Below, piece after piece: positions 1,702 to 18,855 of a DNA stretch of 28,721 nt. Within the stretch, counting starts at the first letter, position 1. Every line of letters starts with the position of its first letter. The notes under the pieces are model-generated. The model worked only from the letters and a program-made list of their open reading frames with translations, made no database searches and was not told where the DNA came from. The position numbers and the translations under genes are program-made. The stretch is from a virus: IMG/VR virus record IMGVR_UViG_3300027832_000082, positions 1-28,721 of that record. One strand, 5' to 3'.

Positions 1702-2340
1702 ATGTGTGGTGGCGGTGGAGGCGGAGGCGGCGGAGATCCCGCAGCGTATCAAAGAGCGGATGACGCGGCGCGTAAACGCCGTATCGATAGTGGTAAGGCT
1801 CAGCTAGAGCAGATTTTTGGCGGGCTAGAGGGCAAAGACGGCACTGCCCCTATCTGGGACCAGCAGGAACAGGCATACCTAGACTTTGCTAATCCGCAGT
1901 TAAACCGTGAGTATGGCGATGCACAAAAAGGCTTGGCCTTCGCGTTATCCAGACAAGGCCAGCTTAACGGATCGGTAGCCGGGGACAATTACGCGGACTT
2001 AAATAAAGACTTTCAGATCCAACAGCAAAACGTAGGTGAGCAAGGCAAGTCTTATGGCAATCAGGCCCGCTCGGACATATCCTCGCAGAAACAATCACTG
2101 CTAAATATGCTATCGGCAAGCGCGGACCCCGGTGCAACAGCCATGGCCGCTCGTTCGTCTATGGATGCCATACGCTCACGCCCCGCCTTTAGCCCCCTAG
2201 GTCCGCTATTCCAAAACGCAACGGCAGGCTTAGCGTCTGGGTATTCGGGTAATCAAGCTAATCAACAAAGAAATAGGTACGATAATGTTGTGTACGGCGG
2301 GGATCCGGACAAGTCCACCGGTTCCGTGAATAGGGGGTAA
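1702..2340 (+). CDS. Virion-associated protein with poly-Gly N-terminus
   Basis: This 212-residue protein has no assigned enzymatic function. It opens with Met-Cys followed by nine glycines, then a basic, Ala-rich helical segment (about residues 15-45) and a Gln/Asn/Ser-rich helical middle. The stretch YLDFANPQLNREYGDAQ, then LAFALSRQGQLNGSV, resembles a family of podophage structural proteins encoded just before the internal virion proteins. AGGAG lies 8 nt before the ATG. The gene is separated by 4 nt from the next one, which also begins Met-Cys. I infer a minor tail or internal-core protein from position and composition. The Cys at position 2 is not a lipobox, because there is no preceding signal peptide. 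Confidence 0.65.
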   Translation: MCGGGGGGGGGDPAAYQRADDAARKRRIDSGKAQLEQIFGGLEGKDGTAPIWDQQEQAYLDFANPQLNREYGDAQKGLAFALSRQGQLNGSVAGDNYADLNKDFQIQQQNVGEQGKSYGNQARSDISSQKQSLLNMLSASADPGATAMAARSSMDAIRSRPAFSPLGPLFQNATAGLASGYSGNQANQQRNRYDNVVYGGDPDKSTGSVNRG

Positions 2341-2344
2341 GACT

Positions 2345-3076
2345 ATGTGTACAGGAGCAGAAGTTGCTATCGTTAGCGCCCTGGCTACAGCCGGGGGTAC
2401 TTACATGCAGTACAACGCCAATAATAAGGCGCAGGACAGACAGGACACCGCGGCACAAGCTGAGTCGTTACGTCAAAGTAAAAAAGACGAAGAGAAGTTC
2501 ACTAACTTCCAATCCGCTTTAGCTGAGGTAGGTAGAGATAAACAGCAAACTAATATAGACGATGCGACCGCCGAGCTAGAGGGGGGTTATGCTAAAAATA
2601 TAAAGGATCCCACTTCGGGGGGAACGTATCGGTCTCCCGCCGCGTCAGGTACGCCTAGCGTGGTAAGGGATTATGCTGGCAAAAAGCAAAGTCAGGCCGA
2701 TGACTTCATATCACTACTAGGCAATGCCCGAGCTAAACAAAATGCCTGGGGGGAGAATAGCTTTGACTTTGGCGAAATGATGCTAGATAAACAATTTGAC
2801 CAGAGACAATTACAAACTGATATGGAGAGGTCCGCTCAAATAGGTAACTATGAAGCGCAAGTAGCCGGTCGTCCGGGTTCTGGTGCTGCTATAGGGAACG
2901 GTCTGGTAGGTTTAGGTGTTGCCGGGCTTGGCGCCGCAGGGGGTATGGGGGCATACGACGGAATGTTTGACGGACGCTTTAGCGGGTCCGGCATAGCAGG
3001 CCCCGTAGTGGGCAGTGGCGCTACTACAACGGCATACCCTGACATTTGGAAATCAGCAAAAGGAGTGAATATCTAA
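2345..3076 (+). CDS. Internal virion protein, T7 gp14-like
   Basis: The 243-residue protein starts MCTGAEVAIVSALATAGG, a short Ala/Gly hydrophobic stretch, followed by a long charged Gln/Lys/Glu-rich helical region (residues 25-70). A second Gly/Ala-rich hydrophobic segment lies near residues 180-205. A Met-Cys start, an early hydrophobic patch and then a coiled helix is the pattern I know from T7 gp14-type internal core proteins, which leave the capsid and help build the DNA channel across the cell envelope. The stop codon overlaps the next start (TAATG at 3074-3078), so the two genes are probably translationally coupled. Function is inferred from architecture and position. Confidence 0.6.
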   Translation: MCTGAEVAIVSALATAGGTYMQYNANNKAQDRQDTAAQAESLRQSKKDEEKFTNFQSALAEVGRDKQQTNIDDATAELEGGYAKNIKDPTSGGTYRSPAASGTPSVVRDYAGKKQSQADDFISLLGNARAKQNAWGENSFDFGEMMLDKQFDQRQLQTDMERSAQIGNYEAQVAGRPGSGAAIGNGLVGLGVAGLGAAGGMGAYDGMFDGRFSGSGIAGPVVGSGATTTAYPDIWKSAKGVNI

Positions 3077-4188
3077 TGGCCCAACGGTTTAGCCCTTACT
3101 ACGCGAACGAGGGCCGATATGGCGGCGTAGGCAAAGCAGTTGGCAACTTAGGTCAGGTCTTTGCAGATATGAATGATCCCAGCGCGGGAATCGCTACAGA
3201 CCGCGCGGCATGGGATACCCGAAAGAATATGGAGGACGTGACAGATACAACTATGGCCCGATCTGGCCGAGGTAAAGCCGCCGAGCTGATACTATCTGGG
3301 GACCCTGGCGGGGATGATATGAGACAGCTGTTTGCTTCCGTGATAGAGGGGGGCTCGTATACCCCTAGTGAAACAGCAAAGCTACTCCAAGCTATCCAAG
3401 GTAATATCAAGGGTGCTACTGATGAAGAACGCGCAGGCGCCTACGTTGGTGGCGGCGGTACTATCTCACCTGATGATGCGTTTAGCATAGATGGACGTAA
3501 CGAAGTAGCCGGACGAAACGCAGGCTACGCACAAGAATTAGAAGCCCTTAAAGGTGCCAACTCTCAAGCTGAAACGATGATGGGTAAACGCTTTGACTTG
3601 AATAATCCCACAGGTAGAGACGACACCGTAGGGAGCGTATTCCGTAGCCAAGGTGCGGAGGCGGGTAATGAGGCCTACCGCGCTATGTATGGTACAGGAT
3701 CTGGTGGGACTGGTGCGGGTGTGGGTGCGGGAGGAGGCCCTGTAGGGGTAACTCCTGATCAGGGCCGTTTCCTTGACGCGCAAGGTAAAATACGGGAAGA
3801 GCTTAGTGCGATGCTAGCGTCATACGGAGTACCTGTCGATAAGAAAGGGAATACGCGAGTAGGTCTACTACCGCAAGGGTACTATGAGAATGTTCTTCAG
3901 CAAGCTACCGACATGGCTAGCCAAGATAACTTTTCCAGGGGCGTTAGCTTTTACGTAGAAAAGGCACTAAAGAATCAAGAACAGATGCCGGGGGGCTACA
4001 CCGAGGACAACAGTATTTGGCCGGGCTTCGGGGGAGAAGAATTAAAAATGAAGTCAAATAGTCCTTCCCCACCAGCAGGCGGCCAAACTGTAGTAACCAC
4101 CGACGCGGAGTATGACGCTCTTCCTCCTGGTACTATGTTCGTAGATGAAACAGGTAAAGGCTTCCACAAGCCATGTGGAGAATATTAA
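3076..4188 (+). CDS. Putative internal virion / ejection protein
   Basis: I place the start at ATG 3076, which overlaps the upstream stop and has AGGAG at 3061-3065; a TTG at 3046 gives a longer frame but lacks a good site. The 370-residue product is hydrophilic and Gly-rich, with no transmembrane segment. It has a Gly-rich linker around residues 215-235 (GTGAGVGAGGG), helical stretches on either side, and a C-terminal TDAEYDALPPGTMFVDETGKG, a short module I have seen at the ends of phage virion proteins. It lies between the gp14-like gene and the giant protein gene, 1 nt from the latter, where podophages usually encode the middle internal core protein. No enzymatic motif was recognised. Confidence 0.55.
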   Translation: MAQRFSPYYANEGRYGGVGKAVGNLGQVFADMNDPSAGIATDRAAWDTRKNMEDVTDTTMARSGRGKAAELILSGDPGGDDMRQLFASVIEGGSYTPSETAKLLQAIQGNIKGATDEERAGAYVGGGGTISPDDAFSIDGRNEVAGRNAGYAQELEALKGANSQAETMMGKRFDLNNPTGRDDTVGSVFRSQGAEAGNEAYRAMYGTGSGGTGAGVGAGGGPVGVTPDQGRFLDAQGKIREELSAMLASYGVPVDKKGNTRVGLLPQGYYENVLQQATDMASQDNFSRGVSFYVEKALKNQEQMPGGYTEDNSIWPGFGGEELKMKSNSPSPPAGGQTVVTTDAEYDALPPGTMFVDETGKGFHKPCGEY

Positions 4189-7100: not shown

Positions 7101-10042
7101 CTAATAATAACGCCTTTGATAGCGTAGATGAGCTTATCGCTTGGGGTATGTCTAACCGAGACTTCCAACAATTTTTAGAGGACACGCCCTATAAGAACAG
7201 CGGCGGTAGTATATGGTCGCATTTTGTAAGTAAGATCCGCGACTTGTTGGGGCTACAGCCTAAGCAGGACACGGCCCTATCCGAGCTACTACGTCAAGTA
7301 CAAATCTTATCTGATGCAGACATTAACAAGCAGGCGGACCAGTTCCGATCAGGCCAAGCTAAAGATAAAGAAGCCGAGCTTTCCGGCAGACGAAATAAGA
7401 GTAAGTCCGACCCGTTAGAAACCGACGTCACTACTTTGCAGAAAGCGGATGACCAGTCTACGGGCATATCTGATAAAGAAGCGTCACAAGAGTACGCAGG
7501 CAGACCCCTTAACCGCATTGCGGACTTAGTAGCCAAAGCACTAAGGGGAGACCCTGCTATGTGGAAGCGCAAACTTAAGGAAAATGCCGCGTTTGGAATC
7601 GCTATCAAGAAAGCTATGTCCACAAACGTAGGTAAAGTCAGTCCGGCAAAAGCCCTCTTTCGTTGGTATTACAATGACGCCGACGACCGTTTGAGAAATA
7701 TAGCCCGCGATTCCAACATGCCGGGAGTGGCCAGACTTGCTGACGCCTTTGCCTTAGAGGCGGGAGGGGCAGCAGGTACAGGCACGATACCCTACCATCA
7801 ACGGCTAAATCGCCGATTAAACGTGCGCCTTGCGGAAGCAGAAGCCGTAAGGGATATGATGGAGAGGGAGAACGTAGACTTAGACAAGTCCGCAGATCAA
7901 TTACGCAAGTTAATAGAGAACCCCCGCGCTTCTCGACGAGGAGGAATAGGTAAAGTAGCTACGGCAGTTGAGAAATTCTTTAGAGCGGAGCTAGATTACT
8001 TAAGAGACGCAGGCATAGAAGTTGGCGAGGTCAAAGGGTACTTCCCCCGTGTAGTGGACAGAGGCCTCATCAACTCAGGTGGAGGTAAAGCCACGTTCAT
8101 ACAAGCGGCTGCGAAAGCGTACCGTATAGATAGCCCTAACCTGAGTAAGGAGGACGCTACTGCGTTAGCTAACGTGCGCTGGCAGCGGGAGTTGTATGGT
8201 TTGCAAAGTGGGTCGCCGGGGTGGAACGCATCCGCCAGCAGTCCTGGTCGGGCGGACAGTTCTAAATCGCGTGTACTTAGCCAAAAAGCGGTAGATGGAT
8301 CCGGCTTGTTGGGGTTCATGGTATCGGACCCGTTTAAGGTGATGATAGGGTACACTCAAAACGCGGCGCTTCGCGGGGAGTTAGCTAAAGTAGAGTACGA
8401 GACTAGTACCGGTGAAACCATTAAGCTAGGGGATAACTGGAAAAATTGGGATCAGATCCGCGATGATTTAATAGAAGAAGGAGGCGACGGCGCTTACGAG
8501 TACATGGACGAAATCCAAGATATGATCGCCACTACGTCAGGCATTAAAGCGCGGACGTATCAAGGCCGCATGGCGCGTGGATTATCGTGGATGCGTACTA
8601 TATCTACGCTGGGTTTATTGGAGTTAGCGACAATGTCGTCTATGCCGGAGCCTATCGTATCGGCTCTTCGCATGAGTTCAGGTGGCGATGCCACTAACGT
8701 AATGCGGTCACACGCAGATCTCATCAAAAGCACAGTACGATACGGCGGCGACACGCTACGATACATCACTAAACTGCCGAAAAGAGAGAGGCTACAAGCC
8801 ACCTACGCTTTGATGGAAGGCTTAGGCGAAATCAATGCCAACAACGCTAACGCTATGAGCATAGATAGATACGCAGGGGGCGACCCAACAAGCGCACTTC
8901 AAAGTAGCCTACTTTCGGGTTATTTTAGGGGTATTCGTTTAGAACAATTCACTACCTACGCTACTGTATTCGCCTCAGAAAACGCCATGACGTTTATGAA
9001 TTACCTAACTAAAGATTTAGATGCGGGGGGCAAACGAGCGGCAAACGCCCGATTCCAACTGCGGGACTTGAATATCCCTGAGTCAGAGGTAGAGGCTTTT
9101 AGTGGTTTTGTCCGTCAGTTGGACGGGGACCACCCTTCCTTAGACCAGCTACAGGGAGCCGGACGGATGGGAGACCTGTACTCGGGGGCGATAGCTAAAT
9201 TTGTAGGAGAGTCTGTCATGCGCCCGTCGGCGTCGCTAAAACCTTCTTACGCGGCTCACCCTTTAGGGGCGGCTATATTTCATCTACTGTCTTTTCCTTT
9301 CGCATTTACTAAAAATGTATTGCGACGCCCATTGCGTAATATTAAGAACGCGCCAGATGATTTAGGCAAGATAAACGCGGCCTTGGTGGTACTGCCTTTC
9401 ATTACAGGTATGTCCCTCATTACCTTATTGCAAGCTTTCCAAGGCGCCGCGCGGGACGAGATAAAGTCTCTAATAGACGACGAAGAAGAGCCCGAGCAGT
9501 CCAAAGGATTCGTGTTAGAACGCGCGCTGTCATGGACAGGTATATTCGGCAAAGTAGATCCCCTATTGCAGATAGTTTCCGGTAGTAGATACCAAAAATC
9601 TTCTCTGGAAGGGGTAACGGGGCCGACAATAGGCAGGGCCGCATCGGGCGTAGATAGCGCCGTAAGGTCATTCAGCAACAACTCTGCTAATACCAGTTCT
9701 GCTGAACGTCAATTATGGAACACAACTATGGATCTGGTGGTAGAGCCCCTGTTCCAAGCCTCCCTCAATTTGGCCCCCGAGGGAGGCGCGGCGGGCGTGG
9801 GTGTTCTAGCGTTGCGTGTTCTAGGCCCGAAATACGCTAAGGATAAACTAGGCGCAGATATATTCCCTATAGACTCAGACAAGGATCCTTCTCCTAGATT
9901 CAGCCTTGTAGAAAAACTGCTAGATATGGATACCCCCGCAGCTACTTCGAGCGATTCTTCAAGAGGCTCATCTGGCCGTGGCTCATCTGGCCGTGGCTCT
10001 TCCGGCCGTGGATCATCTAGCCGTGGATCTTCTAGCCGTTAA
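4190..10042 (+). CDS. Giant ejection protein (about 1950 aa) with HExxH metallopeptidase-like domain
   Basis: The preferred start is ATG 4190, with GGAG at 4177-4180; an ATG at 4145 in the same frame lacks a good site. The product begins with two related modules (SWRERAVPVD and SWRDKAVAVD), followed by an Ala/Gly-rich region to about residue 330. A charged linker follows, then three 9-residue repeats and six KPEP units (6357-6492). Next comes a domain with HELIH at residues 905-909, matching a zincin metallopeptidase active site; Glu981 in DELIAWG is a possible third zinc ligand. The remaining ~900 residues are helical, with hydrophobic patches near residues 1710-1760. The tail is five GSS[GS]R units. 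Size, position and layout fit a protein ejected into the cell envelope, comparable to T7 gp16 or 'large polyvalent protein' types. The peptidase activity is a motif-based prediction. Confidence 0.7.
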   Translation: MASWRERAVPVDNAGPQDSGSSWRDKAVAVDQPEQVGTGRNILKGVNAATTQIIGDIIQFPGTIAELGEKSLVNLLGGFNPGVMFGDSNKLQELGYESDFSVGNFGVDFTSRADPKDTSTGFNKIGRYVADQDFGYEPRQTFDKAWEDPSLSNVAGFVGEQAPQMLPHLAGLWAKPAVYAGSLNQNIADTRVKNDGRVDPNSTDAVPNLPTREDLLYSAPIAALSVFLDRIGLGRMIPGRGKALEEGAQVGAKTLKEAGTSTLKATGTETLTEGTQGGLEYVGGAAGTEKGMNPTDAAKNILAEALIGGPVGGTVRGVTSLAELRVNTREAMIKQGMDASAATDQDVDAFLAEAIRVSETPIPPELMQEIVDSNTGVNASPAINRGTPEGRQASRQVESELGSLFQGTDVMPRESVQTNEDGDVDFQEGATPIQDTAGRQVNPDTYGSQAIVDRVIQEESLTLSPQEMTLAARDITANPTADPKKIVRDYSQQGKESAFRIAEARRIRREKDLDQEVPPERDYTRGAGREEGLSPRMRQDLEQDGKSPPAGVNENQPGQPRDSVDRISTKAVDIRRGDYIPGDGPTGPGIDPNPRQPFTGGGNLADRVGTETTQGSIGDESGIGRREQTVREADRTGRFQGRTNNEVQGFLDLAQAADAADVAIEKAGLSGPLKTAANDHVQAIFDGIGDKGSMDVPAATKAIKEFTDALEPTAEAEPQAEEPTAKPQAEEPTAKPQAEEPTAKPEPKPEPKPEPKPEPKPEPKPEPKPNQDSDADIAAEDDLGGELGFETTPRRGLGPAPAEEAAVKKLLSGTTSALKVAERLSKEAPTATQRVISKFIMRVLRKWDSAGVQVTIRRGKATKYQGLSSLKTSYTRIPDGTIIATVENNISISTVRGLTYDTVIHELIHSITSVATNGVTKGHISDRQTVQAVRALEGLYRHVNKAYSAQIAEMMEGSGYSSQAASRLASTNNNAFDSVDELIAWGMSNRDFQQFLEDTPYKNSGGSIWSHFVSKIRDLLGLQPKQDTALSELLRQVQILSDADINKQADQFRSGQAKDKEAELSGRRNKSKSDPLETDVTTLQKADDQSTGISDKEASQEYAGRPLNRIADLVAKALRGDPAMWKRKLKENAAFGIAIKKAMSTNVGKVSPAKALFRWYYNDADDRLRNIARDSNMPGVARLADAFALEAGGAAGTGTIPYHQRLNRRLNVRLAEAEAVRDMMERENVDLDKSADQLRKLIENPRASRRGGIGKVATAVEKFFRAELDYLRDAGIEVGEVKGYFPRVVDRGLINSGGGKATFIQAAAKAYRIDSPNLSKEDATALANVRWQRELYGLQSGSPGWNASASSPGRADSSKSRVLSQKAVDGSGLLGFMVSDPFKVMIGYTQNAALRGELAKVEYETSTGETIKLGDNWKNWDQIRDDLIEEGGDGAYEYMDEIQDMIATTSGIKARTYQGRMARGLSWMRTISTLGLLELATMSSMPEPIVSALRMSSGGDATNVMRSHADLIKSTVRYGGDTLRYITKLPKRERLQATYALMEGLGEINANNANAMSIDRYAGGDPTSALQSSLLSGYFRGIRLEQFTTYATVFASENAMTFMNYLTKDLDAGGKRAANARFQLRDLNIPESEVEAFSGFVRQLDGDHPSLDQLQGAGRMGDLYSGAIAKFVGESVMRPSASLKPSYAAHPLGAAIFHLLSFPFAFTKNVLRRPLRNIKNAPDDLGKINAALVVLPFITGMSLITLLQAFQGAARDEIKSLIDDEEEPEQSKGFVLERALSWTGIFGKVDPLLQIVSGSRYQKSSLEGVTGPTIGRAASGVDSAVRSFSNNSANTSSAERQLWNTTMDLVVEPLFQASLNLAPEGGAAGVGVLALRVLGPKYAKDKLGADIFPIDSDKDPSPRFSLVEKLLDMDTPAATSSDSSRGSSGRGSSGRGSSGRGSSSRGSSSR
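6357..6492 (+). repeat. Tandem repeats coding a KPEP rod in the giant ejection protein
   Basis: There are three copies of a 27-base unit (coding KPQAEEPTA, the first one diverging at its left edge), followed by six copies of a 12-base unit coding KPEP. They are almost identical at DNA level, which suggests recent expansion by slippage or unequal recombination. The repeats join the N-terminal region to the HExxH domain. Pro-rich alternating Lys/Glu repeats form stiff extended rods, as in TonB. Confidence 0.9.
9965..10039 (+). repeat. Five 15-base repeats coding the GSS[GS]R tail
   Basis: Five tandem 15-base units encode GSSGR three times and then GSSSR twice, ending directly at the stop codon of the giant ejection protein. 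The tail is basic and flexible, possibly a DNA- or membrane-contact tail. The last bases overlap the end of the convergent DNA polymerase gene. Confidence 0.85.
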
Positions 10043-12261
10043 TCTTTGCGGAACCTGTCAGAGATATATCCAGTGGCGGAGATAGGACACCCCTCCGCCC
10101 AGCTAGGTAGGTCACACAACAAATCCTCATACTCAGCTAGATTTTCTAAGCCTTTATCTATCTCGCTGGCTAGCTCATCGTGTACCGAAAATAGACCGGG
10201 GTAGCCAAGATCATCTACAGTTAACCAACCGTGAGCCATTATGTCCCGAGCAGATCCTTGTACCGCCGACTGGAATATATCGCCGCCATAGGTAGAAGAT
10301 CTAATGATCCGACCTTGCTCTACCTTATCAAATGTAATTTGTTTCTTAACCGCGCCCCACGGAGTAGTCCGGGAGACTAGCTTCACATTAGCATAATGAA
10401 TACACCGTCCACTAGGTAGGCGTAATAGCAAGAACAACTTACCTTGTATGGACTTGGCCAGCAAAGCCAGCTTACCATCACAGAAGTAAAACGGCTTGCC
10501 AGGTGTTTCCACGGCAGCTATCGCCGCGTCCTCTGCACCCCTCCAACTGTTCACAATACCGGGGTGTCTACTGCGCCAAGCAAGTTTAACCGTCTCACTG
10601 GCCACCCATGCGGTTTTAGATAAGGTCGTGTTACCCTTACCAAAATTATCATAATTCTCTAACGCGCTCTCCCAGTAGTCAAAAAGACTTTGTTTAATCG
10701 TGTCCGCATAATCTTCCATGTTAATGCCGTAGGCGTTACCCATAGAAACATAAGCCCCTACGCCACCTTGAAAGCCTAAAGCGAGTTCTGACACTTTGCC
10801 TAGTACGTTGCGTTGGGTTTTGTCTACATCTTCGGGGTTTATTCCCAGGATACCACCCGCCGTTACCTTGTACAGGTCAGGCCCTTCGCCATCATCGTAA
10901 GCCTTAAATGCGTCTAGCTTCCATTGTTCGCCCCCAAGCCAAGCGCCTATGCGTCCTTCAATATTAGAGTAATCCGCGCATATAATTTGCTTACCCGGTC
11001 TGGCCTTTATGGCCCCACGTAAACACATGGACAATACTTCTATTATAGATAAGCCTGTTATGGCTTCTATTCCGGGCACTAAGTCGTAAGGCGTGTCGGA
11101 CTCGTTAATGATCTGAATTACCCATTCAGCCTCATCGTATTTAAGCAAACCGCGTGAAGGTAAATTGTGTAGCTGAAAACCCAGTGCGGACCAGCGGCCT
11201 GTAGATTGAGCGCCGTAGTACACAAGCTGATCTCGCGCGATACCCTCTCCGTCAGCATGCCTTTTCATGGCAGGGAATTTAGCTACAGACGATTTACCTG
11301 CTTCGGATCTAATTGTTAAGACGCGCTTAAGTGCACTTGGCACATTGGGATCTTTAATCAATTCACCAACAATACCCGCGGCCAAACTGTCCACAGGTAC
11401 GCCCTGAGATTTAGCAAAAGCTTTCATGCCGTTAAGGTCTGTGTGCGATTTAACCTGGCCACCAGATAGGTCTAGCAGTTCTTCGGCGTAGCCTTTTAAG
11501 TTCCGCTCTATTATGGCAATCGCTTTGTTAATAAAAGGCATATCAAGTAGACAGCCTCTTACATTAGCCCGCATGGTTAACTGCCATATCTTCCATTCCA
11601 TAGGTGGCAATTCAGGGATATGTAAGTGTAAGTCCATTTGAGTACGTACATCGTCATCGCAATACGCGCCTAGTCTTTCCACCCTGTCGTTATCTGCCCA
11701 CCATTCGTAGAATATCGCAGCAACCCCATCTCGCGCATCTGTATAAGTTAGGGGGTCGTCTAGGTACTGGTTTATTATTTCGTCGTTATCGGGGTCCATC
11801 GGGTCAAAGCGATGAACCTTACGTGGCTTGGCCATCTGTTTCATCAGTTTAGATCCAGCCATATCCTTAGAATGGGCTAACCCTAAAGCAGGCGCGGCCT
11901 TTTCTAATGCCCTCGGTATGCCTATGCGCGCGGCCCTTGCGGCTGTATCTGACATTTGAGATAGCTTTAATTCTGGCCAGCCATACCGGGGCGTTAATAA
12001 TTGTGTCCAAACGGCAAACTCAAAACCCGCATTATGGGCGCAGATAATTCCACCAGCGGTAACATGGTCTATTAAATTTTGGGGGCAAGGTCGGCCGTAG
12101 CCCCATCGGAGCACTATATGAGGCGCATCATCAAAGGCATACCGCAGTAGCCAAACCTCTGTAGTGGGGTGCTGAGCGTACACAAAAGCGTTAGTGCCGC
12201 CCTTGCCTAGCTTAATGGTGCTTCTTGTCTCAACGTCAAGTACGCATACGGGCAAAGTCAT
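10039..12261 (-). CDS. Family A DNA polymerase with 3'-5' exonuclease domain
   Basis: The 740-residue protein copies phage DNA. The N-terminal DnaQ-like proofreading domain shows Exo I (LDVET, D9 and E11), Exo II (AHNAGFEF, N77 region) and Exo III (Y200...D204). The polymerase domain carries motif A (CADYSNIEGR, D430), a phage-type motif B (KTQRNVLGK then LALGFQGG, about 481-500) and motif C (VHDE, H694-D695-E696). All catalytic acids are present, so it should be active. The length is close to T7 DNA polymerase. It is the last gene of the leftward replication operon, overlapping the methyltransferase stop by 4 nt (ATGA). Its stop shares the palindrome TTAA (10039-10042) with the convergent virion gene. 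No terminator is visible at this junction. Confidence 0.96.
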   Translation of the reverse strand: MTLPVCVLDVETRSTIKLGKGGTNAFVYAQHPTTEVWLLRYAFDDAPHIVLRWGYGRPCPQNLIDHVTAGGIICAHNAGFEFAVWTQLLTPRYGWPELKLSQMSDTAARAARIGIPRALEKAAPALGLAHSKDMAGSKLMKQMAKPRKVHRFDPMDPDNDEIINQYLDDPLTYTDARDGVAAIFYEWWADNDRVERLGAYCDDDVRTQMDLHLHIPELPPMEWKIWQLTMRANVRGCLLDMPFINKAIAIIERNLKGYAEELLDLSGGQVKSHTDLNGMKAFAKSQGVPVDSLAAGIVGELIKDPNVPSALKRVLTIRSEAGKSSVAKFPAMKRHADGEGIARDQLVYYGAQSTGRWSALGFQLHNLPSRGLLKYDEAEWVIQIINESDTPYDLVPGIEAITGLSIIEVLSMCLRGAIKARPGKQIICADYSNIEGRIGAWLGGEQWKLDAFKAYDDGEGPDLYKVTAGGILGINPEDVDKTQRNVLGKVSELALGFQGGVGAYVSMGNAYGINMEDYADTIKQSLFDYWESALENYDNFGKGNTTLSKTAWVASETVKLAWRSRHPGIVNSWRGAEDAAIAAVETPGKPFYFCDGKLALLAKSIQGKLFLLLRLPSGRCIHYANVKLVSRTTPWGAVKKQITFDKVEQGRIIRSSTYGGDIFQSAVQGSARDIMAHGWLTVDDLGYPGLFSVHDELASEIDKGLENLAEYEDLLCDLPSWAEGCPISATGYISDRFRKD

Positions 12262-13475
12262 AGCAAAATCTCCGCTTCCATGTAAGCACTAATAAACGCG
12301 GTAGCCGTATCGGCTTGTATTGCATTACCGTAGCCTTTTAGGCGTATTGTCCTAGCTAAAGCGGTGGCATTTGCGTCGATTGGACCGCCGCGATACACCA
12401 CTCCTCGGGCAAGCTTATCAACCAACGGCTTAATGCCGGATTTAATTGGCCGGTACTTTTCGTCTCGGCAGTACAACCACTCGATTTCGCTTGCATCTGC
12501 AAGTCCGAAAGACATATCCCCATTGAAGTGCCCGTCTTCGCAACGGACTTTCTCTTCCGAGCCAGAAACGCCTCTGGAGTCCCGTTCGCAGGCTGCGCTA
12601 CAGGAGTTGCCCACCCCGCTAGGCTTGCTGGGTAAAGACGCGGGTGGACTTGCTCTCTCAAGTTCGCCGGTGCTGTTCGACCCTTCCGCGCAACTGAGAA
12701 TTGGCGCTTCATTGCCTCTTGGCTTCTCGGGGGAAGGATGTCCATCGTGTTCGGAGTCGCCCATCCCGCCACGCTCGCTATGGCACCTAGTCCGTTCTGG
12801 TTCGCTATTCGATACCGGTTGCACGCCTTGTTCCCGTCCACTGCCTGCGGAGTTGGCCTCCCCGCTATCTGCGCGCACACGTCCAGCGTGTCCGTCGATA
12901 TTTTCCCGTTGCGGATCCGTCCTCCCGCGTAACCCCCCTTCCAGTCCCGTGTTGATGGAGTTGCCCACGCAGACTTGTTCAGCAACCCAGTAAAGTCTTT
13001 GTCTTTGGTGCGCGGCGTTGACGCTGTGTGCGCCCAATACACAATGCCCAACGGTGTAGTTTTCTGCTTCCATTGTTGTTTGTAAATCATCGAGCCAACC
13101 GTGTCTAATCGCGCTTTCAACCTGCTCACCAATAATGACGTTAAATCCGCACTCTTTGACGAGTTCAAGGAAGTAGGGCAATAAGTGTCGTTCATCTTCT
13201 TTTCCTTTTTGATTTCCTGCCGCGCTGAAAGGCTGGCAAGGTAAGCTTGCTGTACACACAGGCCTATCATCTGACCACCCTGCGTTTCTAAGGGCGTATG
13301 ACCACACGCCGATACCTGCGAAAAAATGGTGCTGAGTATATCCGGCTAGGTCTTTTGCTTTTACGTCTAATACAGATCTCTCATCTACATAGCCGGGGGC
13401 AATATCCCCATTAGCAATTAACTGTCTTAACCAAGCTGCGGCTTTAGGGTCAAACTCGTTATAGTAAGCTGTCAT
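12258..13475 (-). CDS. C5-cytosine DNA methyltransferase (Dcm-like)
   Basis: The 405-residue protein would transfer a methyl group from SAM to cytosine C5. Motif I is FFAGIGVWSYAL (51-62), the catalytic motif IV is SLPCQPFSAAG with Cys80, motif VI is GEQVE in place of ENV, motif VIII is HQRQRLYWV, and the C-terminal motif X is GYGNAIQADTATAFI. Between motifs VIII and X, about 170 residues are low complexity (Gly, Ser, Asn, Glu, Arg), with repeated words such as VGNS and ADSG instead of an obvious target-recognition domain. This stretch overlaps a second long frame (next entry). It likely protects phage DNA from restriction or marks it for regulation. It follows the resolvase by 3 nt and overlaps the polymerase start. 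The start ATG has only a weak AAGG upstream. Confidence 0.93.
   Translation of the reverse strand: MTAYYNEFDPKAAAWLRQLIANGDIAPGYVDERSVLDVKAKDLAGYTQHHFFAGIGVWSYALRNAGWSDDRPVCTASLPCQPFSAAGNQKGKEDERHLLPYFLELVKECGFNVIIGEQVESAIRHGWLDDLQTTMEAENYTVGHCVLGAHSVNAAHQRQRLYWVAEQVCVGNSINTGLEGGLRGRTDPQRENIDGHAGRVRADSGEANSAGSGREQGVQPVSNSEPERTRCHSERGGMGDSEHDGHPSPEKPRGNEAPILSCAEGSNSTGELERASPPASLPSKPSGVGNSCSAACERDSRGVSGSEEKVRCEDGHFNGDMSFGLADASEIEWLYCRDEKYRPIKSGIKPLVDKLARGVVYRGGPIDANATALARTIRLKGYGNAIQADTATAFISAYMEAEILL
12356..13195 (-). CDS. Overprinted ORF inside the methyltransferase gene (279 aa)
   Basis: This frame lies wholly within the Dcm-like gene, shifted +1. The ATG at 13195 has AGGA seven bases upstream, a better site than that of the Dcm gene itself; an earlier in-frame ATG at 13270 is less convincing. 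The 279-residue product is not low complexity. It contains LTSLLVSRLKARLDTVGS, IYKQQWKQKTTP, three WATP words (WATPSTRDWKGG, WATPNTMDILPPRS, WATPVAQP) and NPALSRWLISLPEEW near the end. I recall these words from a phage protein family annotated near or as DNA methylases, so I think the frame is really translated. The function is unknown. It could also be reached by +1 frameshifting from Dcm. A third long ORF on the opposite strand here shows that frame openness alone is weak evidence. Confidence 0.6.
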   Translation of the reverse strand: MNDTYCPTSLNSSKSADLTSLLVSRLKARLDTVGSMIYKQQWKQKTTPLGIVYWAHTASTPRTKDKDFTGLLNKSAWATPSTRDWKGGYAGGRIRNGKISTDTLDVCAQIAGRPTPQAVDGNKACNRYRIANQNGLGAIASVAGWATPNTMDILPPRSQEAMKRQFSVARKGRTAPANLREQVHPRLYPASLAGWATPVAQPANGTPEAFLARKRKSVAKTGTSMGICLSDLQMQAKSSGCTAETKSTGQLNPALSRWLISLPEEWCIAAVQSTQMPPL

Positions 13476-13478
13476 TTT

Positions 13479-13979
13479 TTACGCCTTGTTCCATTTAATA
13501 GCATCGCGTCCGTATACAGCCATACATGCTGCGTCAGCTATCCCGTCGTTGGGGACAGTCATACGTCCGGGCGTTAAGTCCACTTGCGGTAGGAAGCGTT
13601 GTACATACGATATGGCCGCGGCTTTATCTGTGCCGGTGCCTTTTAGTATGGCTACCTTCCACCGCATCGGGCTTACTGTTTTGTAGGGTATCGCCATCGC
13701 GTCTAGTACGCCATGTAGGACACCTACGCCTATTGCAAATCTAAATTCATTACCGGCATTTCTTATGGCCTTTCCGGCTGCGTTTCTATGGCCTCTCGCG
13801 CCTATTAGCTCTATACATACTACGTCTACACTTTCTAAGGTAAGCCAAAGAGCTACAGCTTTACCATCGATAGACTTGCCATCTTCTTTAATTGGCATGC
13901 GGAGCAGTGCGCTTGTTCCGTCAGGTCTTAAGGCAACAAGCGCGCCTGTTTTTCCCGGATCAATCCCGCAAACTATCAT
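13479..13979 (-). CDS. RuvC-like Holliday junction resolvase
   Basis: The 166-residue protein has the RNase H-fold signature of RuvC endonucleases: GIDPGKTGA at the N-terminus (D7), VVCIE (E57) in the second acidic block, and NDGIADAACMA near the end (D145 and D149). Length and motif spacing match the small resolvases of phages. It would cut four-way junctions and branched DNA formed during phage recombination and replication, before packaging. AAGGAGG lies about 11 nt before the ATG, a rather long spacing. The gene overlaps the preceding small ORF by about 20 nt and leads straight into the methyltransferase gene. Confidence 0.9.
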   Translation of the reverse strand: MIVCGIDPGKTGALVALRPDGTSALLRMPIKEDGKSIDGKAVALWLTLESVDVVCIELIGARGHRNAAGKAIRNAGNEFRFAIGVGVLHGVLDAMAIPYKTVSPMRWKVAILKGTGTDKAAAISYVQRFLPQVDLTPGRMTVPNDGIADAACMAVYGRDAIKWNKA

Positions 13980-14166
13980 CTATCTGCCACCCTCCTTCTG
14001 TGGTGTACATCCATCTGATAGGGGCAGGTATATCGTCTAAGATAACGCTGTCGGCGCTCTTGCCTCTAATCTTACCGTCACTGCCTGTTATTACCCTGAC
14101 TGTCCCAGGGGCCTTTCCACCGACTGTGGCTAAAACTGTAGCTAAATCCATCGCGCAAAATATCAT
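13960..14166 (-). CDS. Small hypothetical protein
   Basis: This is a 68-residue frame between the terminator after the SSB gene and the resolvase gene, overlapping the latter by 20 nt. No family was recognised. The sequence looks protein-like (a short hydrophobic N-terminus, then TVRVITGSDGKIRGKSAD and a Trp-containing end). The ATG at 14166 sits in the T-tract of the upstream terminator and has no ribosome binding site; an internal ATG at 14151 is no better. It may start differently, be leaderless or be untranslated. Confidence 0.45.
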   Translation of the reverse strand: MIFCAMDLATVLATVGGKAPGTVRVITGSDGKIRGKSADSVILDDIPAPIRWMYTTEGGWQIDDSLRD

Positions 14167-14195
14167 AAAATAAAGCCCCGACTTTCACCGGGGCT
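14167..14195 (-). terminator. Intrinsic terminator after the SSB gene
   Basis: Read on the minus strand, a 7-bp stem AGCCCCG/CGGGGCT with an 8-base loop is followed by TTTATTTTA. It starts 9 nt after the SSB stop codon. It would reduce transcription into the small ORF, resolvase, methyltransferase and polymerase genes downstream. Confidence 0.8.
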
Positions 14196-14203
14196 CCTCA
14201 TTG

Positions 14204-14797
14204 CTAGTCCATAAAGTCGTCAGAAGCAGATCCTTCCGTCACATCTTCGCCAAAATCATCATCCGCAGATGCGTTGGTAGCGCCGAACGGATCATTTTCG
14301 CCTACCTTCATTACGTTAGATAAACCAAACGAGACACCACTACCGCCCACGTCATGTTTCCATGCGTACACGTTGATAGCCGCTTTAACATCACACCCCG
14401 CGTAGACTTCACGCTTAATGTCGGTACCTTCTAGTCTTCGAGTACCACCGCCCGGTATGGCCATAAGCACACCTACTGGTACCGTACTGGCTAGTCGGAT
14501 AAATACATCGTCTTCGCCGTAACCGTTAGGTACTTTGTTTTTTAGATCATCGATAGTCATAAAAGGGACTTTAACTTTACGTGGACGGTTATCCCCCCAT
14601 TTATCTTTAATCGCTTTTTCTACAGCAGCTTCCAAATCCTTAAAGTCTTTGGTCTTTTGAGCGGCTTGGTCAAAAATCATAGTAAGCTGATACTTCGGCT
14701 CACCCTGGTTATTGATTTGTTTTGGTTCCATTAGTACGGGGAACGACGCGCGGCCTACTGGTGTTAAGTAGTTACCTGTTTTTTCATTAAAAGCCAT
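14204..14797 (-). CDS. DUF2815 single-stranded DNA-binding protein
   Basis: This 197-residue protein matches DUF2815, a phage family with an OB fold considered functionally equivalent to T7 gp2.5-type ssDNA-binding proteins. It opens with GRASFPVLMEPKQINNQGEPKYQL, typical of the family (here broken by the first strand turn), has a KVKVPF segment in the middle, and VYAGCDVKAAINVYAW as a core strand pair. The C-terminus is strongly acidic (DDDFGEDVTEGSASDDFMD), as expected for SSBs that recruit replication partners through the tail. AAGGA lies before the ATG. It directly follows the DUF2800 nuclease gene; these two families are habitual neighbours in phage recombination modules. A terminator follows. 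Confidence 0.9.
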   Translation of the reverse strand: MAFNEKTGNYLTPVGRASFPVLMEPKQINNQGEPKYQLTMIFDQAAQKTKDFKDLEAAVEKAIKDKWGDNRPRKVKVPFMTIDDLKNKVPNGYGEDDVFIRLASTVPVGVLMAIPGGGTRRLEGTDIKREVYAGCDVKAAINVYAWKHDVGGSGVSFGLSNVMKVGENDPFGATNASADDDFGEDVTEGSASDDFMD

Positions 14798-14833
14798 GAT
14801 ATTTTTCCTTTCTGAGATAATAAGATATTGAGA

Positions 14834-16030
14834 TTAAGATGAAACGTCATCGACAAAATCATCTTCTGGTCCCCGCAGGATTGCAGGGCGTTTATCACTT
14901 GCTGGGGCTATTGTTGGCTTGCCCTCAGTAGTTGATATGAGATCGGCGAGTTCCGATTTTTGTTGCTTGCCAACCAACGTCTCTGCCTTTGCTGGCGTCG
15001 TGAAGTTCTCTGCGTAGAGATCAGCACGAGTATAGCCAAGGTCGAGAAGTTTCTTTTCGGCCGCGTCCGTGTCTTTCCAATCACGACTACTGCGGCCTGC
15101 TACTAGTTTAAATTCACCACCGGTTATATCTTTACCGTGGGATAACCCAGCTAAGGCTAATTCAGCCACCCCAGCAAACCATTTAACTACAAATTTTTCC
15201 GCCTTAAGTATAGCTGCAACCTGGGCCGGAGTTAACTTGTCTTTAGATACCGTAGGTACTACCGCTCCTGTATCGTCAAAGTCTAGCATCGCGTCCGACA
15301 TAGCCTTATCTGCTAATGCGGGGCAGATGCCTTTTGCTGGGCAAAACACACAAGCTTTGTCGCTAGGTACTAGAGGGGCGTCCGGTTCTCTGGTAGCTAA
15401 CACCGCCGGTTTAAGTACATTTTGCCCCCAATCTAGTAACTCTTGTACGCTGTATGTGCAGCTTCTAATCGGCCCTTTTTCATGCTCCTTTCTAGGTTGT
15501 ATGGCTGTGGTTCTTACTTGCGCTACCGCATGCGGATCTTTTAAAGAGAGCAAACCCCCTAAGCCGTAGTACATAAATTGAGTATTGTCCTCAACCTCTA
15601 CCATCATGCCCTCACCGTGCTTGTAATCATCTACAAGCAGGACCTGTCTATCCACCGCTAAAAAGTCAGCGGTACCAAATAGGTCCTTAGCCCAATCCCC
15701 TAGACGGGCTAACCGCACCCGTCGTTCTACATTGGTTTTATCTATAGGGATTTTATAGCTGCGGATATGGTCTACGTACACGGCTACGGCGTCCACCATG
15801 TTTACGTCTACGTCCAGGTCCATATATTCTGGATCAGGGTGAGGCGCATCCAGGTACTCCATAGGAAGATCTCCATTGAGTAGGCAAATCTCGCCTAAAC
15901 TATGGGCCGCACTACCTAATCGAGCATGAGTGGAGCTTGTGTTAGGCAGCCCTTCGGACATTCTCACCGAACCTGGACAGGTCATCCACCGTGAGGTAGA
16001 CGACGCACCTAACTTCGCGTGGGCGGCCAT
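14834..16030 (-). CDS. DUF2800 Cas4/RecB-like nuclease
   Basis: The 398-residue protein belongs to DUF2800, a PD-(D/E)XK nuclease family. Visible active-site elements are GTADF (D122), VDDYKHG (D135, K137) and the QFMYY helix (Q151). Four cysteines, C18 in WMTCPGS and C227, C230 and C236 in CVFCPAKGIC, are placed as in Cas4/AddB-type iron-sulfur nucleases. It probably acts as an exonuclease that makes ssDNA for the DUF2815 protein to coat. Its start overlaps the stop of the acidic protein gene (TAATG), indicating coupling. The C-terminal ~100 residues are helical and charged. The family is secure; polarity and substrate are not known from sequence. Confidence 0.88.
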   Translation of the reverse strand: MAAHAKLGASSTSRWMTCPGSVRMSEGLPNTSSTHARLGSAAHSLGEICLLNGDLPMEYLDAPHPDPEYMDLDVDVNMVDAVAVYVDHIRSYKIPIDKTNVERRVRLARLGDWAKDLFGTADFLAVDRQVLLVDDYKHGEGMMVEVEDNTQFMYYGLGGLLSLKDPHAVAQVRTTAIQPRKEHEKGPIRSCTYSVQELLDWGQNVLKPAVLATREPDAPLVPSDKACVFCPAKGICPALADKAMSDAMLDFDDTGAVVPTVSKDKLTPAQVAAILKAEKFVVKWFAGVAELALAGLSHGKDITGGEFKLVAGRSSRDWKDTDAAEKKLLDLGYTRADLYAENFTTPAKAETLVGKQQKSELADLISTTEGKPTIAPASDKRPAILRGPEDDFVDDVSS

Positions 16031-16542
16031 TATTTAGATCCAGCAATCGCAGTAGCCCATAAACCTGAACGCTTGTCTTCCGGTACTTCGCTTAAGCGCG
16101 CACCACCAAACTGAGCAATCAGCGCTTTACCTTTTACTGAGCCATTTTTGTCTACGTAAGCCATTACCGCATCGCGTAGCTCCTCATCAGTAACTTTATC
16201 TGGCGCGTCTTCTTCTCCATCGTCCCAAGGCAGGTCCTCTTCTTCGGCTACCTCTTCTTCAACTACTTCTTTTTCTTCAACTTCTGGCTTAGGCTTAGCC
16301 CGTGATTTGCGCTCGCGGGGCGTTGGCTTTTCTTCTTCGGGTTCTTGCTCCGGTGCCTCTTCGTCAGGAGTGGCTTCGGTTGGTTTTTTCTCCTGTGTTT
16401 CCCCTTTACCTGAGTATGTGCCCGCTAAGGTGCGGGTGTGTACGTAGTCCACCGCTGCAATAGCGTCCGTCATATCCGATTTAGCGGATTCTGATTCTAG
16501 GTTTATCTTCGATCCGCGGTATTCAATTTCAATTTTAATCAT
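16030..16542 (-). CDS. Acidic phage protein with a small C-terminal helical domain
   Basis: This 170-residue protein has a short N-terminal beta segment (MIKIEIEYRG), a long Glu/Pro/Lys-rich disordered middle (about residues 45-115), and a compact C-terminal domain. That domain reads EELRDAVMAYVDKNGSVKGKALIAQ (split here as EELRDAVMAYV and KGKALIAQFGGARLSEVP). Such a terminal helical module occurs in several phage proteins next to ssDNA-binding or recombination genes; I recall the pattern without a name. The position immediately upstream of the nuclease and SSB, with coupled translation, suggests an accessory role in recombination or replication. GGAG lies 7 nt before the ATG. Function is not assigned. 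Confidence 0.7.
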   Translation of the reverse strand: MIKIEIEYRGSKINLESESAKSDMTDAIAAVDYVHTRTLAGTYSGKGETQEKKPTEATPDEEAPEQEPEEEKPTPRERKSRAKPKPEVEEKEVVEEEVAEEEDLPWDDGEEDAPDKVTDEELRDAVMAYVDKNGSVKGKALIAQFGGARLSEVPEDKRSGLWATAIAGSK

Positions 16543-16579
16543 GTTTGTTCTCCAATTTTAAATAAGTCGTCCTACTTTT

Positions 16580-17089
16580 CTAATCAACTACGCCCCAATC
16601 TAGCGCATCCAGATCACTTTGGCTGGCAAGCCAACCCGGAAGCATCGCCCATCGCCCATCGGCATTGACGGTATACATGTCAAAGTGAGGCAAGATAATA
16701 CATTCATTAATGCCGTGGTTCTTGTAAACGCTACCTTCGGCCATAGCGTGAGTTTCACCATTGCTTCCAGGATTGTAAATAACCCACATTCCTTTGCCTT
16801 TCCACCCAGCGCGTGACGTTTTTAAACCCGCCTTCATCAAGACAACAGCATGCCCCGAGGACATATTGCCACTAGTTTGATGCGCATTTTCAAATTGTTC
16901 TTTAGGCGACCACGATATGCACCCATCGTGCCTTGGATCATTAGACTCTCCGCTATCTAAGTATTCGACTAAGTACCCGGCGTCGTCCCCGTCTTCATTT
17001 GAGGGAAGTAGCCAGTTTCGGTAATCGTTGTAATCCAGCCGGGTCATCGGCTGCGCGCTAATTCTTTTCGTTCCTATATAATTTTGCAT
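16580..17089 (-). CDS. Tad2-like (DUF2829) protein with N-terminal extension
   Basis: The 169-residue protein has two parts. Residues 1-75 (YIGTKRISAQPMTRLDYNDY, then GYLVEYLDSG and ISWSPKEQFE) form a domain common at the N-terminus of phage proteins. From about residue 76 the DUF2829 pattern appears: SGHAVVLMKAGLKTSRAGWKG, then GMWVIYNPGS, HFDMYTVNADG, and the closing GWLASQSDLDALDWGVV. DUF2829 is the family of Tad2, an anti-defence protein that sequesters the cyclic ADP-ribose-type signal of the Thoeris system. This copy keeps the whole Tad2-like domain. A sponge role is inferred from family membership only, and DUF2829 members may bind other ligands. AGGAG precedes the ATG. It sits within the early replication operon, which fits early expression. 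Confidence 0.8.
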   Translation of the reverse strand: MQNYIGTKRISAQPMTRLDYNDYRNWLLPSNEDGDDAGYLVEYLDSGESNDPRHDGCISWSPKEQFENAHQTSGNMSSGHAVVLMKAGLKTSRAGWKGKGMWVIYNPGSNGETHAMAEGSVYKNHGINECIILPHFDMYTVNADGRWAMLPGWLASQSDLDALDWGVVD

Positions 17090-17115
17090 GTTTATTCTCC
17101 TAAGTAGTGAAGCGG

Positions 17116-17532
17116 TTATTTAACTAGTTTCGACACATCGGCCCGCAACTGATCGATGTTCGGTATACCCATGGCCTCTAAGGCCTGTTGTCTAGCTGAG
17201 TCCCGTCGCGATGCGGACAGGACTTTTTCAATGCTGTTGTTCTTAGCTTTCAAATCGTGTAACTGGTTTAGGTCTACCCGGTCAAATATGTATTTATAGT
17301 TGATCGTCGTATCTAATATGCCGGTGCCGATCTTGTTTTCTACATTGCGGACCAAAGCCAAGGACACCCCGTTAGCTGTGTCAACTAGCACCCTAGCGTC
17401 TATTTCTAATTCGTCCGCAATGTCTTTACAGCAAAAGAAAGTATATTGCTGGCCGTTGACCTGGTTACAGAACACCACGTCTACTGTGGTTATGTCTTCG
17501 CGTACTAACGCGACTAATTCTCCGTTATTCAC
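17116..17532 (-). CDS. Hypothetical phage protein
   Basis: This 138-residue protein starts at GTG 17532, with a G-rich site (AGGGG) a few bases upstream. The N-terminal ~85 residues look like a small beta barrel (TTVDVVFCN, QQYTFFCC, ARVLVDTANGVSLALV), followed by YKYIFDRVD and a C-terminal helical, charged segment (about 95-138). I recall phage proteins with this order of strands plus a 'YK.I...VD' hinge, but no function. It lies between the SNF2 helicase and Tad2-like genes, with 9 nt to the helicase stop, and is clearly part of the leftward operon. Confidence 0.65.
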   Translation of the reverse strand: MNNGELVALVREDITTVDVVFCNQVNGQQYTFFCCKDIADELEIDARVLVDTANGVSLALVRNVENKIGTGILDTTINYKYIFDRVDLNQLHDLKAKNNSIEKVLSASRRDSARQQALEAMGIPNIDQLRADVSKLVK

Positions 17533-17541
17533 ACCCTGCCC

Positions 17542-18855
17542 CTAAAGTAATTGTGCAATCATGGCCGCTTTTCTCTCAGCAGATCCCATAATCGCCTCGT
17601 CTATAGATCCTGCTAACTTAGCAAACCGCACTAAGCATTTATTATTCTGACCTATCCTGTGTATGCGTAGCATAGCTTGCAGGTTCTCCCCCGGTACCCA
17701 ACTTGGTTCTACAATGATCATGCTATGCGCACCTGTCATCGTATGACCTACCCCCGCGGCTAATATCTGCCCTATAAATACTCTACAGTTTGTAGTGTAG
17801 GTGTGTCCATTAAACCTGTCAACCTCTTCTTGTCTTTTATTTGAAGGTACCCTTCCATCAACAACGGCCACCCCATATTTGTGTAATGCCTGTTTAAAGT
17901 AATCGATAGTATCGTGATGCCAGCACATGAGGACTATCTGCTCAAGCCCGCCGTTTAGCTCCTCTTCTATTTCCGGTACTAAAGAGTAGGCCTTAGCGAG
18001 TCCGCACATTTTGCGTAGGGTAGACAGTTCGGAGTTGTCCACCCAGTCCATCATCATATCGCTAGCGTCCTCGTCCCCTAGCAATGCCTCCATTTCTGGT
18101 GTGGACGTGGTTATGTTACGTATTGCGGCTAGTGCGTCTTCGTTCTCTACGGTAATAGATCCTATTTGTAGCTCAGGCAAGTCCGGCAGCACGTCTTCTC
18201 TTCTACGCCGCAGCATAAAGCCCTGTATGGCTTCTTTCAGATCAGCCACCGTAGGTTTGTTGCCTAAAACTTTTACGCCGTATGTGGTGGGCTGGGTGTA
18301 GCAATAGTGGTGTAGGAAAGCGTCGTAGTCTTTCCCATCGATTATGTCTGGCCTCAGCCTAGCCAAAATGGGGAATAGCTCCGCTATGTTATTCGGTGCG
18401 GGTGTTCCGCTGGCCATCCATACCCGTTCCGCGTTATCAACCACCCCATATTCGCCTAATACAGCTCGGGTCCGCTTAGCTACGGGGGACTTAAGCGCGT
18501 GGCTCTCATCGAAGGCCATAACGTCATATTCCATTTTTCTGATCTGCTGGTGGATCTCTTTTCTAATTAACAAATCATAATTAATAATAGTAATAGATGG
18601 TCCGGTAGGTAGCTTGTCCTGACTTGTTGGAATGTATACCGGCAAATCAGCCAGAGAAAATTTTGCTATTTCCCTAGCCCAGTTAACCTTAAGGCTTGCG
18701 GGACAGCCTATTAAGATACGTTGCGCCCCTACATAATCACAGGCCGTCGCTATTTGCGCTGTCTTGCCTAAGCCAGGCTGATCTCCTAGATATAAGGTCT
18801 TAGACGCAGCTAGGCGCCTGGCCCCCACTTCCTGATATGGGAATAGCTCTATCAC
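17542..18855 (-). CDS. SNF2-family DNA helicase/translocase
   Basis: The 437-residue superfamily 2 ATPase shows motif I (GDQPGLGKT, K31), motif II DESH (116-119), motif III ASGTPAPN, and motifs V-VI ending in RIHRIGQ near residues 397-403. The gaps between motifs are short and there are no accessory domains, as in phage SNF2 proteins that travel with DUF2800/DUF2815 genes. It is most like the SMARCAL1-type annealing or remodelling branch. It probably moves along double-stranded DNA to remodel forks, remove proteins or anneal strands. It follows the HTH gene by 7 nt. It is a complete, probably active ATPase. Confidence 0.93.
   Translation of the reverse strand: MIELFPYQEVGARRLAASKTLYLGDQPGLGKTAQIATACDYVGAQRILIGCPASLKVNWAREIAKFSLADLPVYIPTSQDKLPTGPSITIINYDLLIRKEIHQQIRKMEYDVMAFDESHALKSPVAKRTRAVLGEYGVVDNAERVWMASGTPAPNNIAELFPILARLRPDIIDGKDYDAFLHHYCYTQPTTYGVKVLGNKPTVADLKEAIQGFMLRRRREDVLPDLPELQIGSITVENEDALAAIRNITTSTPEMEALLGDEDASDMMMDWVDNSELSTLRKMCGLAKAYSLVPEIEEELNGGLEQIVLMCWHHDTIDYFKQALHKYGVAVVDGRVPSNKRQEEVDRFNGHTYTTNCRVFIGQILAAGVGHTMTGAHSMIIVEPSWVPGENLQAMLRIHRIGQNNKCLVRFAKLAGSIDEAIMGSAERKAAMIAQLL

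Follow-up and report, generated by a model that had tools for sequence, protein, structure and literature searches.

Split C5-methyltransferases are already known, and in one of them, M.EcoHK31I, the gene for the larger polypeptide also encodes the smaller one, in a different frame. Multispecific methyltransferases of Bacillus phages have exchangeable recognition domains with a size near 40 residues. M.EcoHK31I carries motifs I–VIII and X in one polypeptide and motif IX in the other, and its predicted recognition domain is assigned to the larger subunit (PMC3404938). M.AquI also comprises two polypeptides, the second of which contains motif IX together with a portion of the variable region (PMC3404938). 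Phage C5-methyltransferases with several tandem recognition domains have been described (Wilke 1988; Trautner 1996, as cited in PMC8936443 and PMC12707154).

The locus described here is located in IMG/VR record IMGVR_UViG_3300027832_000082, positions 1 to 28,721; this whole stretch of 28,721 nucleotides was analysed and is referred to as the window. The Dcm-like product of the locus is termed alpha and the product of the overlapping +1 frame is termed beta. By published layout, the locus resembles M.EcoHK31I (and M.EaeI) in that the larger chain holds motifs I–VIII and X. However, M.EcoHK31I is part of a restriction-modification system and its predicted recognition domain is in the larger subunit, and the tandem array of W-x-TP modules present in the window beta is not described for it. 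In M.AquI motif X resides in the second polypeptide, whereas the window has it in the catalytic frame, with the other frame carrying the nested putative recognition half. Judged by module layout, the SPR, SPbeta, phi3T, rho11 and H2 methyltransferases resemble beta, with tandem modules (median here 39 residues), but they are single-chain enzymes written in one frame whereas the window uses two. The nested layout in phages is a variant of the split enzymes, and our literature search found no description of nested methyltransferase frames in phages.

Two pairs are direct relatives, with the same offset and the same families as the window: K1ind2 ORF28/ORF29 and the Xanthomonas phage PhiXhv-28 pair. 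Public records annotate both frames of each pair but do not interpret them as one enzyme. The K1ind2 frames are located at L284:2203-3132 and 2291-3088, and the +1 product (ORF28) is named 'putative Mte8-like protein'. The PhiXhv-28 frames are located at L285:2215-3207 and 2297-3202, and both products are named DNA methyltransferase.

Two reading frames in one methyltransferase gene

The features of the locus, in window coordinates, are:

12258..13475, minus strand: alpha, Dcm-like C5-methyltransferase ORF, 405 aa, motifs I–VIII and X in frame 0 (PF00145, PHROG_363, M.HhaI fold)
12356..13195, minus strand: beta, +1 ORF from ATG 13195, 279 aa (PHROG_1008, PHROG_31772, selection in the +1 frame)
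13196..13270, minus strand: possible N-terminal extension of beta from ATG 13270, 304 aa in total (ORF list; stop depletion over Dcm codons 61–105)
13203..13207, minus strand: AAGGA, Shine-Dalgarno-like, 7 nt 5' of ATG 13195 (sequence)
13308..13328, minus strand: alpha motif I, HFFAGIG (invariant or nearly so in alignment A3)
13224..13241, minus strand: alpha motif IV, catalytic PCQPFS (invariant or nearly so in alignment A3)
13119..13127, minus strand: alpha motif VI, EQV (invariant in alignment A3)
12996..13010, minus strand: alpha motif VIII, HQRQR (R158 and R160 invariant in alignment A3)
13017..13155, minus strand: conserved N-terminal part of beta, helix then beta-hairpin, SADL...GSMIYKQQWKQKTTPLGIVYWAHTASTP (alignments A1 and A2; model confidence)
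12446..12967, minus strand: four tandem W/R-x-TP modules of beta, candidate target-recognition domains (module analysis)
12398..12445, minus strand: motif IX-like element of beta, LNPALSRWLISLPEEW (invariant residues; gapless alignment to ordinary C5-methyltransferases)
12318..12344, minus strand: alpha motif X, RLKGYGNAI (G383 and N384 invariant in alignment A3; synonymous O/E near 1 again)
13479-13979: RuvC-like resolvase, neighbour of the methyltransferase gene
10039-12261: DNA polymerase, neighbour on the other side of the methyltransferase gene

Alpha matches PHROG_363 (DNA methyltransferase, E 9.8e-61) and Pfam PF00145 (E 6.6e-14), the latter over profile positions 66–160 only, ending after motif VIII. 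The motifs HFFAGIG, PCQPFS, EQV and HQRQR are nearly invariant in 37 relatives (alignment A3), and the closest structure in a fold search was M.HhaI (E 2e-9). The alpha model comprises a Rossmann domain to residue 171, a disordered segment spanning residues 172–331, with pLDDT below 50 throughout, single residues excepted, and then a C-terminal helix. The DNA of the W-x-TP module array, read in the alpha frame, accounts for the greater part of the unconserved linker (alpha residues ~170–343). Ordinary C5-methyltransferases of the same host genomes match PF00145 to its end, and those of some of these genomes contain RRLTPRECARLMGFPDTF...QAYRQFGNSV (motifs IX and X), whereas the overlapped Dcm proteins show only ...RVGRLRAYGNAI; no LTPRE-type motif was found in them ahead of GYGNAI. 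Alpha has neither a recognition domain nor motif IX in its own frame, only the disordered segment there.

Beta belongs to PHROG_1008 and PHROG_31772, both labelled DNA methyltransferase, and the phage-family words that the original prediction pointed out are those of this real family. Sequence searches of Pfam, NCBIfam and the PDB with beta yielded nothing significant, nor did a fold search yield a significant match. Alignments A1 and A2 define a layout that begins with a helix-hairpin, GSTLYxLTWKxxxTPxGR, continues with W-x-TP modules and ends with GQLNPxxSRWLMGxPxEW. The helix-hairpin is the best-modelled part, with pLDDT up to 93, and the segment that contains it (13017..13155) overlaps alpha motifs VI–VIII; the module region models poorly. 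The four modules of the window beta comprise 36, 32, 50 and 56 aa, and the 56-aa figure counts the stretch leading to motif IX. A census of 553 modules gave a median of 39 aa. Of 52 module types with occurrences in three or more loci, 45 are seen at more than one position, and the first module type of the window beta is found in 30 other loci; modules are exchanged among loci. The W-x-TP modules are candidate target-recognition domains, which would read the DNA, and in these properties they resemble the exchangeable recognition domains of the multispecific Bacillus phage methyltransferases.

The same bases yield repeated words in both frames, as the original prediction described: TGGGCAACTCC reads GNS in the Dcm frame and WATP in the +1 frame. 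The Dcm linker words VGNS, GDS and ADS are a frame shadow of the +1 W-x-TP repeats. The gene lies in a phage replication block (window 10039-18855) encoding a SNF2-like helicase, an exonuclease (DUF2800), an Enc34-type ssDNA-binding protein, the RuvC-like resolvase and a family A DNA polymerase; given this setting, self-methylation against restriction is a likely use.

Dual coding and its conservation

The number of +1 stops expected was obtained by shuffling Dcm codons synonymously in 47 non-redundant relatives. Over Dcm codons 106–168 the +1 frame is stop-free in 47/47 relatives, compared with 7.6 expected, and 0 stops were seen versus 84 expected. Over the linker, 1 stop was seen versus 64 expected. 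The depletion extends upstream, with 1 stop versus 13.9 expected at codons 61–80 and 0 versus 10.7 at codons 81–105, so the region in which the +1 frame stays open begins at about Dcm codon 61. The third frame showed no stop depletion under the same shuffling, its counts matching expectation. In the converse calculation, with +1 codons shuffled, the Dcm-frame linker contained 2 stops versus 744 expected and the third frame 1222 versus 1090. The alpha frame is held open across the linker, so translation in it must continue as far as motif X. The overlap of two protein-like frames proposed by the original prediction is thus confirmed, and the rarity of +1 stops in relatives, one of the checks that it proposed, favours the overlap.

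Dcm synonymous variation, expressed relative to the 5' end, is ~1 to codon 80 and slightly lower at codons 81–100, falls to 0.1–0.7 in most windows of codons 106–365 where residues are shared, and is ~1 again past the +1 stop. Dcm synonymous sites are therefore constrained only within the overlap, an excess that was another of the proposed checks and that also favours the overlap. Substitution rates at Dcm positions 1/2/3 are 0.158/0.130/0.479 upstream; the linker values are 0.278/0.105/0.063, with Dcm position 1 corresponding to the third codon position of the +1 frame. The linker changes fastest at beta third positions in 127/127 scorable pairs, and Dcm third positions are the slowest.

For dN/dS, substitutions in 83 disjoint pairs were classed by their effect in each frame, and ranges were obtained by bootstrap. 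The linker dN/dS is 0.31 (0.28–0.34) in the +1 frame versus 0.78 (0.72–0.85) in the Dcm frame. In the flanking parts of the overlap the +1 and Dcm values are, respectively, 0.50 and 0.31 upstream, and 0.32 and 0.35 downstream. Both frames are held open, and the region codes for two proteins with selection acting on each. The variable linker belongs to the +1 protein, and Dcm needs only its openness.

A search of IMG/VR with Dcm yielded 80 loci. A homologous +1 ORF is present at offset +1 in 78 of the 81 IMG/VR loci in which both frames were identified, and in these relatives it usually ends just short of the Dcm stop. Together with the linker dN/dS, this conservation upholds the proposal of an overprinted pair in which the second protein shapes the methyltransferase linker. 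Independently, a profile built from alignment A1 of the +1 protein was searched against 84,980 bacterial and archaeal genomes and against viral contigs, yielding 80 loci from each source. A Dcm relative overlaps at the identical offset in 160/160 of these loci. The original prediction had named a lack of homologues outside Dcm genes as an outcome that would refute it, and taken literally this outcome was observed, as the sampled set contains no standalone beta homologue; its other two checks, however, favour the overlap. The arrangement is common to hundreds of related phages and prophages, and a PHROG_1008 search gave matches in 13/198 genomes of one host family.

Three of the 160 loci (L107, L164 and L239) have an intact +1 frame but a Dcm linker interrupted by a stop; alpha motif X would be lost there or produced separately. 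In L033, L016 and L184, the Dcm and +1 segments switch frame together, as from one indel (sequencing error or pseudogene). Such a joint frame change was seen in 1/160 loci from the +1 profile.

A putative two-subunit methyltransferase

We propose that one phage gene specifies, in two of its frames, both subunits of a DNA cytosine-5 methyltransferase, and assign this reading a probability of about three in four. Alpha, in frame 0, would be the AdoMet-binding catalytic half, with motifs I–VIII, a disordered unconserved tether and motif X. Beta, in the +1 frame, would be the target-recognition half, with the helix-hairpin, tandem exchangeable W-x-TP modules of ~39 residues and the motif IX-like element. 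Alpha would catalyse and beta would recognise the target, the two probably assembling into one active methyltransferase that marks the phage DNA, presumably against host restriction. The two-subunit reading is favoured because alpha lacks exactly what beta appears to carry, namely motif IX and the recognition domain. Along the DNA the order VIII – recognition modules – IX – X would match that of an ordinary single-chain enzyme, except that its central part has passed into the +1 frame. A heteromeric methyltransferase is the simplest reading. The original prediction overlooked the resemblance of the +1 product to the half that this enzyme lacks.

Beta residues L251, P253, W258, L259, P263 and W266 of the motif IX-like element are invariant in 96 relatives. 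A profile comparison with free choice of site placed LNPALSRWLISLPEEW without gaps on motif IX, LTPRECARLMGFPDTF (P 0.053), a match that is short and statistically weak alone. Proof of motif IX from the sequence profile alone was rejected, as the element falls in the right place but with a weak P (about 0.05). Also counting against the two-subunit reading are the failure of the sequence and fold searches to find relatives of beta, the poor model of its module region, the variable start codon and the placement of the M.EcoHK31I recognition domain in the larger subunit.

The comparative evidence from other phages argues more strongly for the motif IX identity than the profile match does. The seed peptide behind the search for these forms served as a lead only, and the proteins themselves were taken from records. 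In B22 and MidnightRain the element (LSARFVEWMMGLPDGW and LSPRFTEWMMGLPDGW, respectively) belongs to a single chain, with motif VIII before it and motif X after it. The motifs of Catdawg are divided between gp6, with I–VIII, and gp5, with the recognition region, IX and X; the two overlap by 209 nt in +1, a layout like that of M.AquI. In Llama, Harrison, Yong-M4-211, ctgrD200 and N133 the element is in the +1 frame inside the Dcm gene. Phages with this arrangement include mycobacterial ones and those of Paenibacillus and Synechococcus. A search with the nested-beta profile recovers the MidnightRain motif as well as the +1 ORFs, and gives a weak match to the single-chain B22 (E 0.027 in a 22-protein set). 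PHROG_1008 matches the nested beta proteins, the C-terminal halves of B22 and MidnightRain, Catdawg gp5 and the Llama, Harrison, Yong-M4-211, ctgrD200 and N133 forms. The single-chain and partly overlapping phage versions support the two-subunit reading, for which M.EcoHK31I is the precedent. The gp6/gp5 pair of Mycobacterium phage Catdawg (L279:1750-2701) is an apparent intermediate between the single-chain and nested forms.

The +1 ORF could instead be a real overprinted gene whose function is unrelated and which is only by chance nested in a methyltransferase gene; a DNA-binding or an anti-restriction protein would be an example. The dual coding holds whatever the function, beta has no solved or Pfam relative, and the sequence evidence for motif IX is short, all of which would suit such a gene. 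However, beta is never apart from Dcm in the 160 loci, its motif IX-like element is colinear and has in-frame homologues in single-chain methyltransferases, and its apparent content is exactly what alpha is missing; an unrelated function is therefore unlikely.

The original prediction assigned beta its own ribosome-binding site and ATG 13195; the AAGGA site is indeed present upstream of it. However, ATG 13195 as a conserved start was rejected: most relatives have ACG at that site because the Dcm Asp-Glu codons dictate the letters. Many relatives have a Shine-Dalgarno-like site and a start at about Dcm codons 31–41, positions that are themselves Dcm-constrained, and in the K1ind2 and PhiXhv-28 records beta is annotated from near Dcm codon 30. 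The +1 frame of the window is closed in this region and opens only at 13345, so that its ATG candidates are 13270 and 13195. Initiation 5' of codon 61 is likely in many relatives, and beta is probably translated from an internal start of its own.

Programmed +1 frameshifting from Dcm, also raised by the original prediction, would join the catalytic N-terminus to the recognition half in one fusion protein. It would account for the lack of a conserved start codon where the conserved beta region begins, and in two metagenomic relatives, L016 and L033, the Dcm N-terminal and beta C-terminal parts are in one frame; these two loci, however, shift both frames together, as a single indel would. The depletion of +1 stops at codons 61–105 would be unneeded with a shift near codon 105, and a start codon is present upstream in every relative listed. 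A fusion before the beta helix-hairpin would lose motifs VI–VIII, and motif X would be lost too. Frameshifting is thus very improbable, and this part of the original prediction is not borne out. That the +1 frame is untranslated, its openness stemming from Dcm coding constraint, codon bias or an RNA or DNA element, is scarcely credible: GC-rich phages carry fewer alternative-frame stops and the linker is of low complexity, but the many stops predicted by Dcm synonymous shuffling are absent in reality, linker changes concentrate at beta rather than Dcm third positions, and the third frame behaves as by chance.

Implications for phage methyltransferases

Beyond the single locus, the two-subunit reading may apply widely to cytosine methyltransferases of phages and prophages, as a class in which the specificity subunit is a combination of small exchangeable modules written over the catalytic gene. 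Phages would then retarget methylation by swapping modules, and the low-complexity 'VADS/GNS' linkers that many annotated Dcm proteins show would be only their frame shadow. We advance this generalization tentatively, at somewhat less than even odds.

If the two-subunit reading is true, part of the phage 'DNA cytosine methyltransferase' annotations denote half an enzyme, and the annotated gene product expressed alone would fail or mislead. Methylome predictions made from the Dcm frame would be wrong, and the variable linker should not be taken for a recognition domain. If the modules read DNA, they would constitute a ready-made combinatorial specificity system for phage counter-restriction. 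The loci also form a large, natural and experimentally easy set of fully overlapping genes with measurable selection in both frames. Their clear intermediates (single chain, partly overlapping, nested) allow a test of how overlapping genes arise when one protein is split.

Among the single-chain forms, gp50 of Propionibacterium phage B22 (L283:629-2728) contains an intein-like insertion that splits the catalytic PCQ exactly at the cysteine (SPC...HNCQ).
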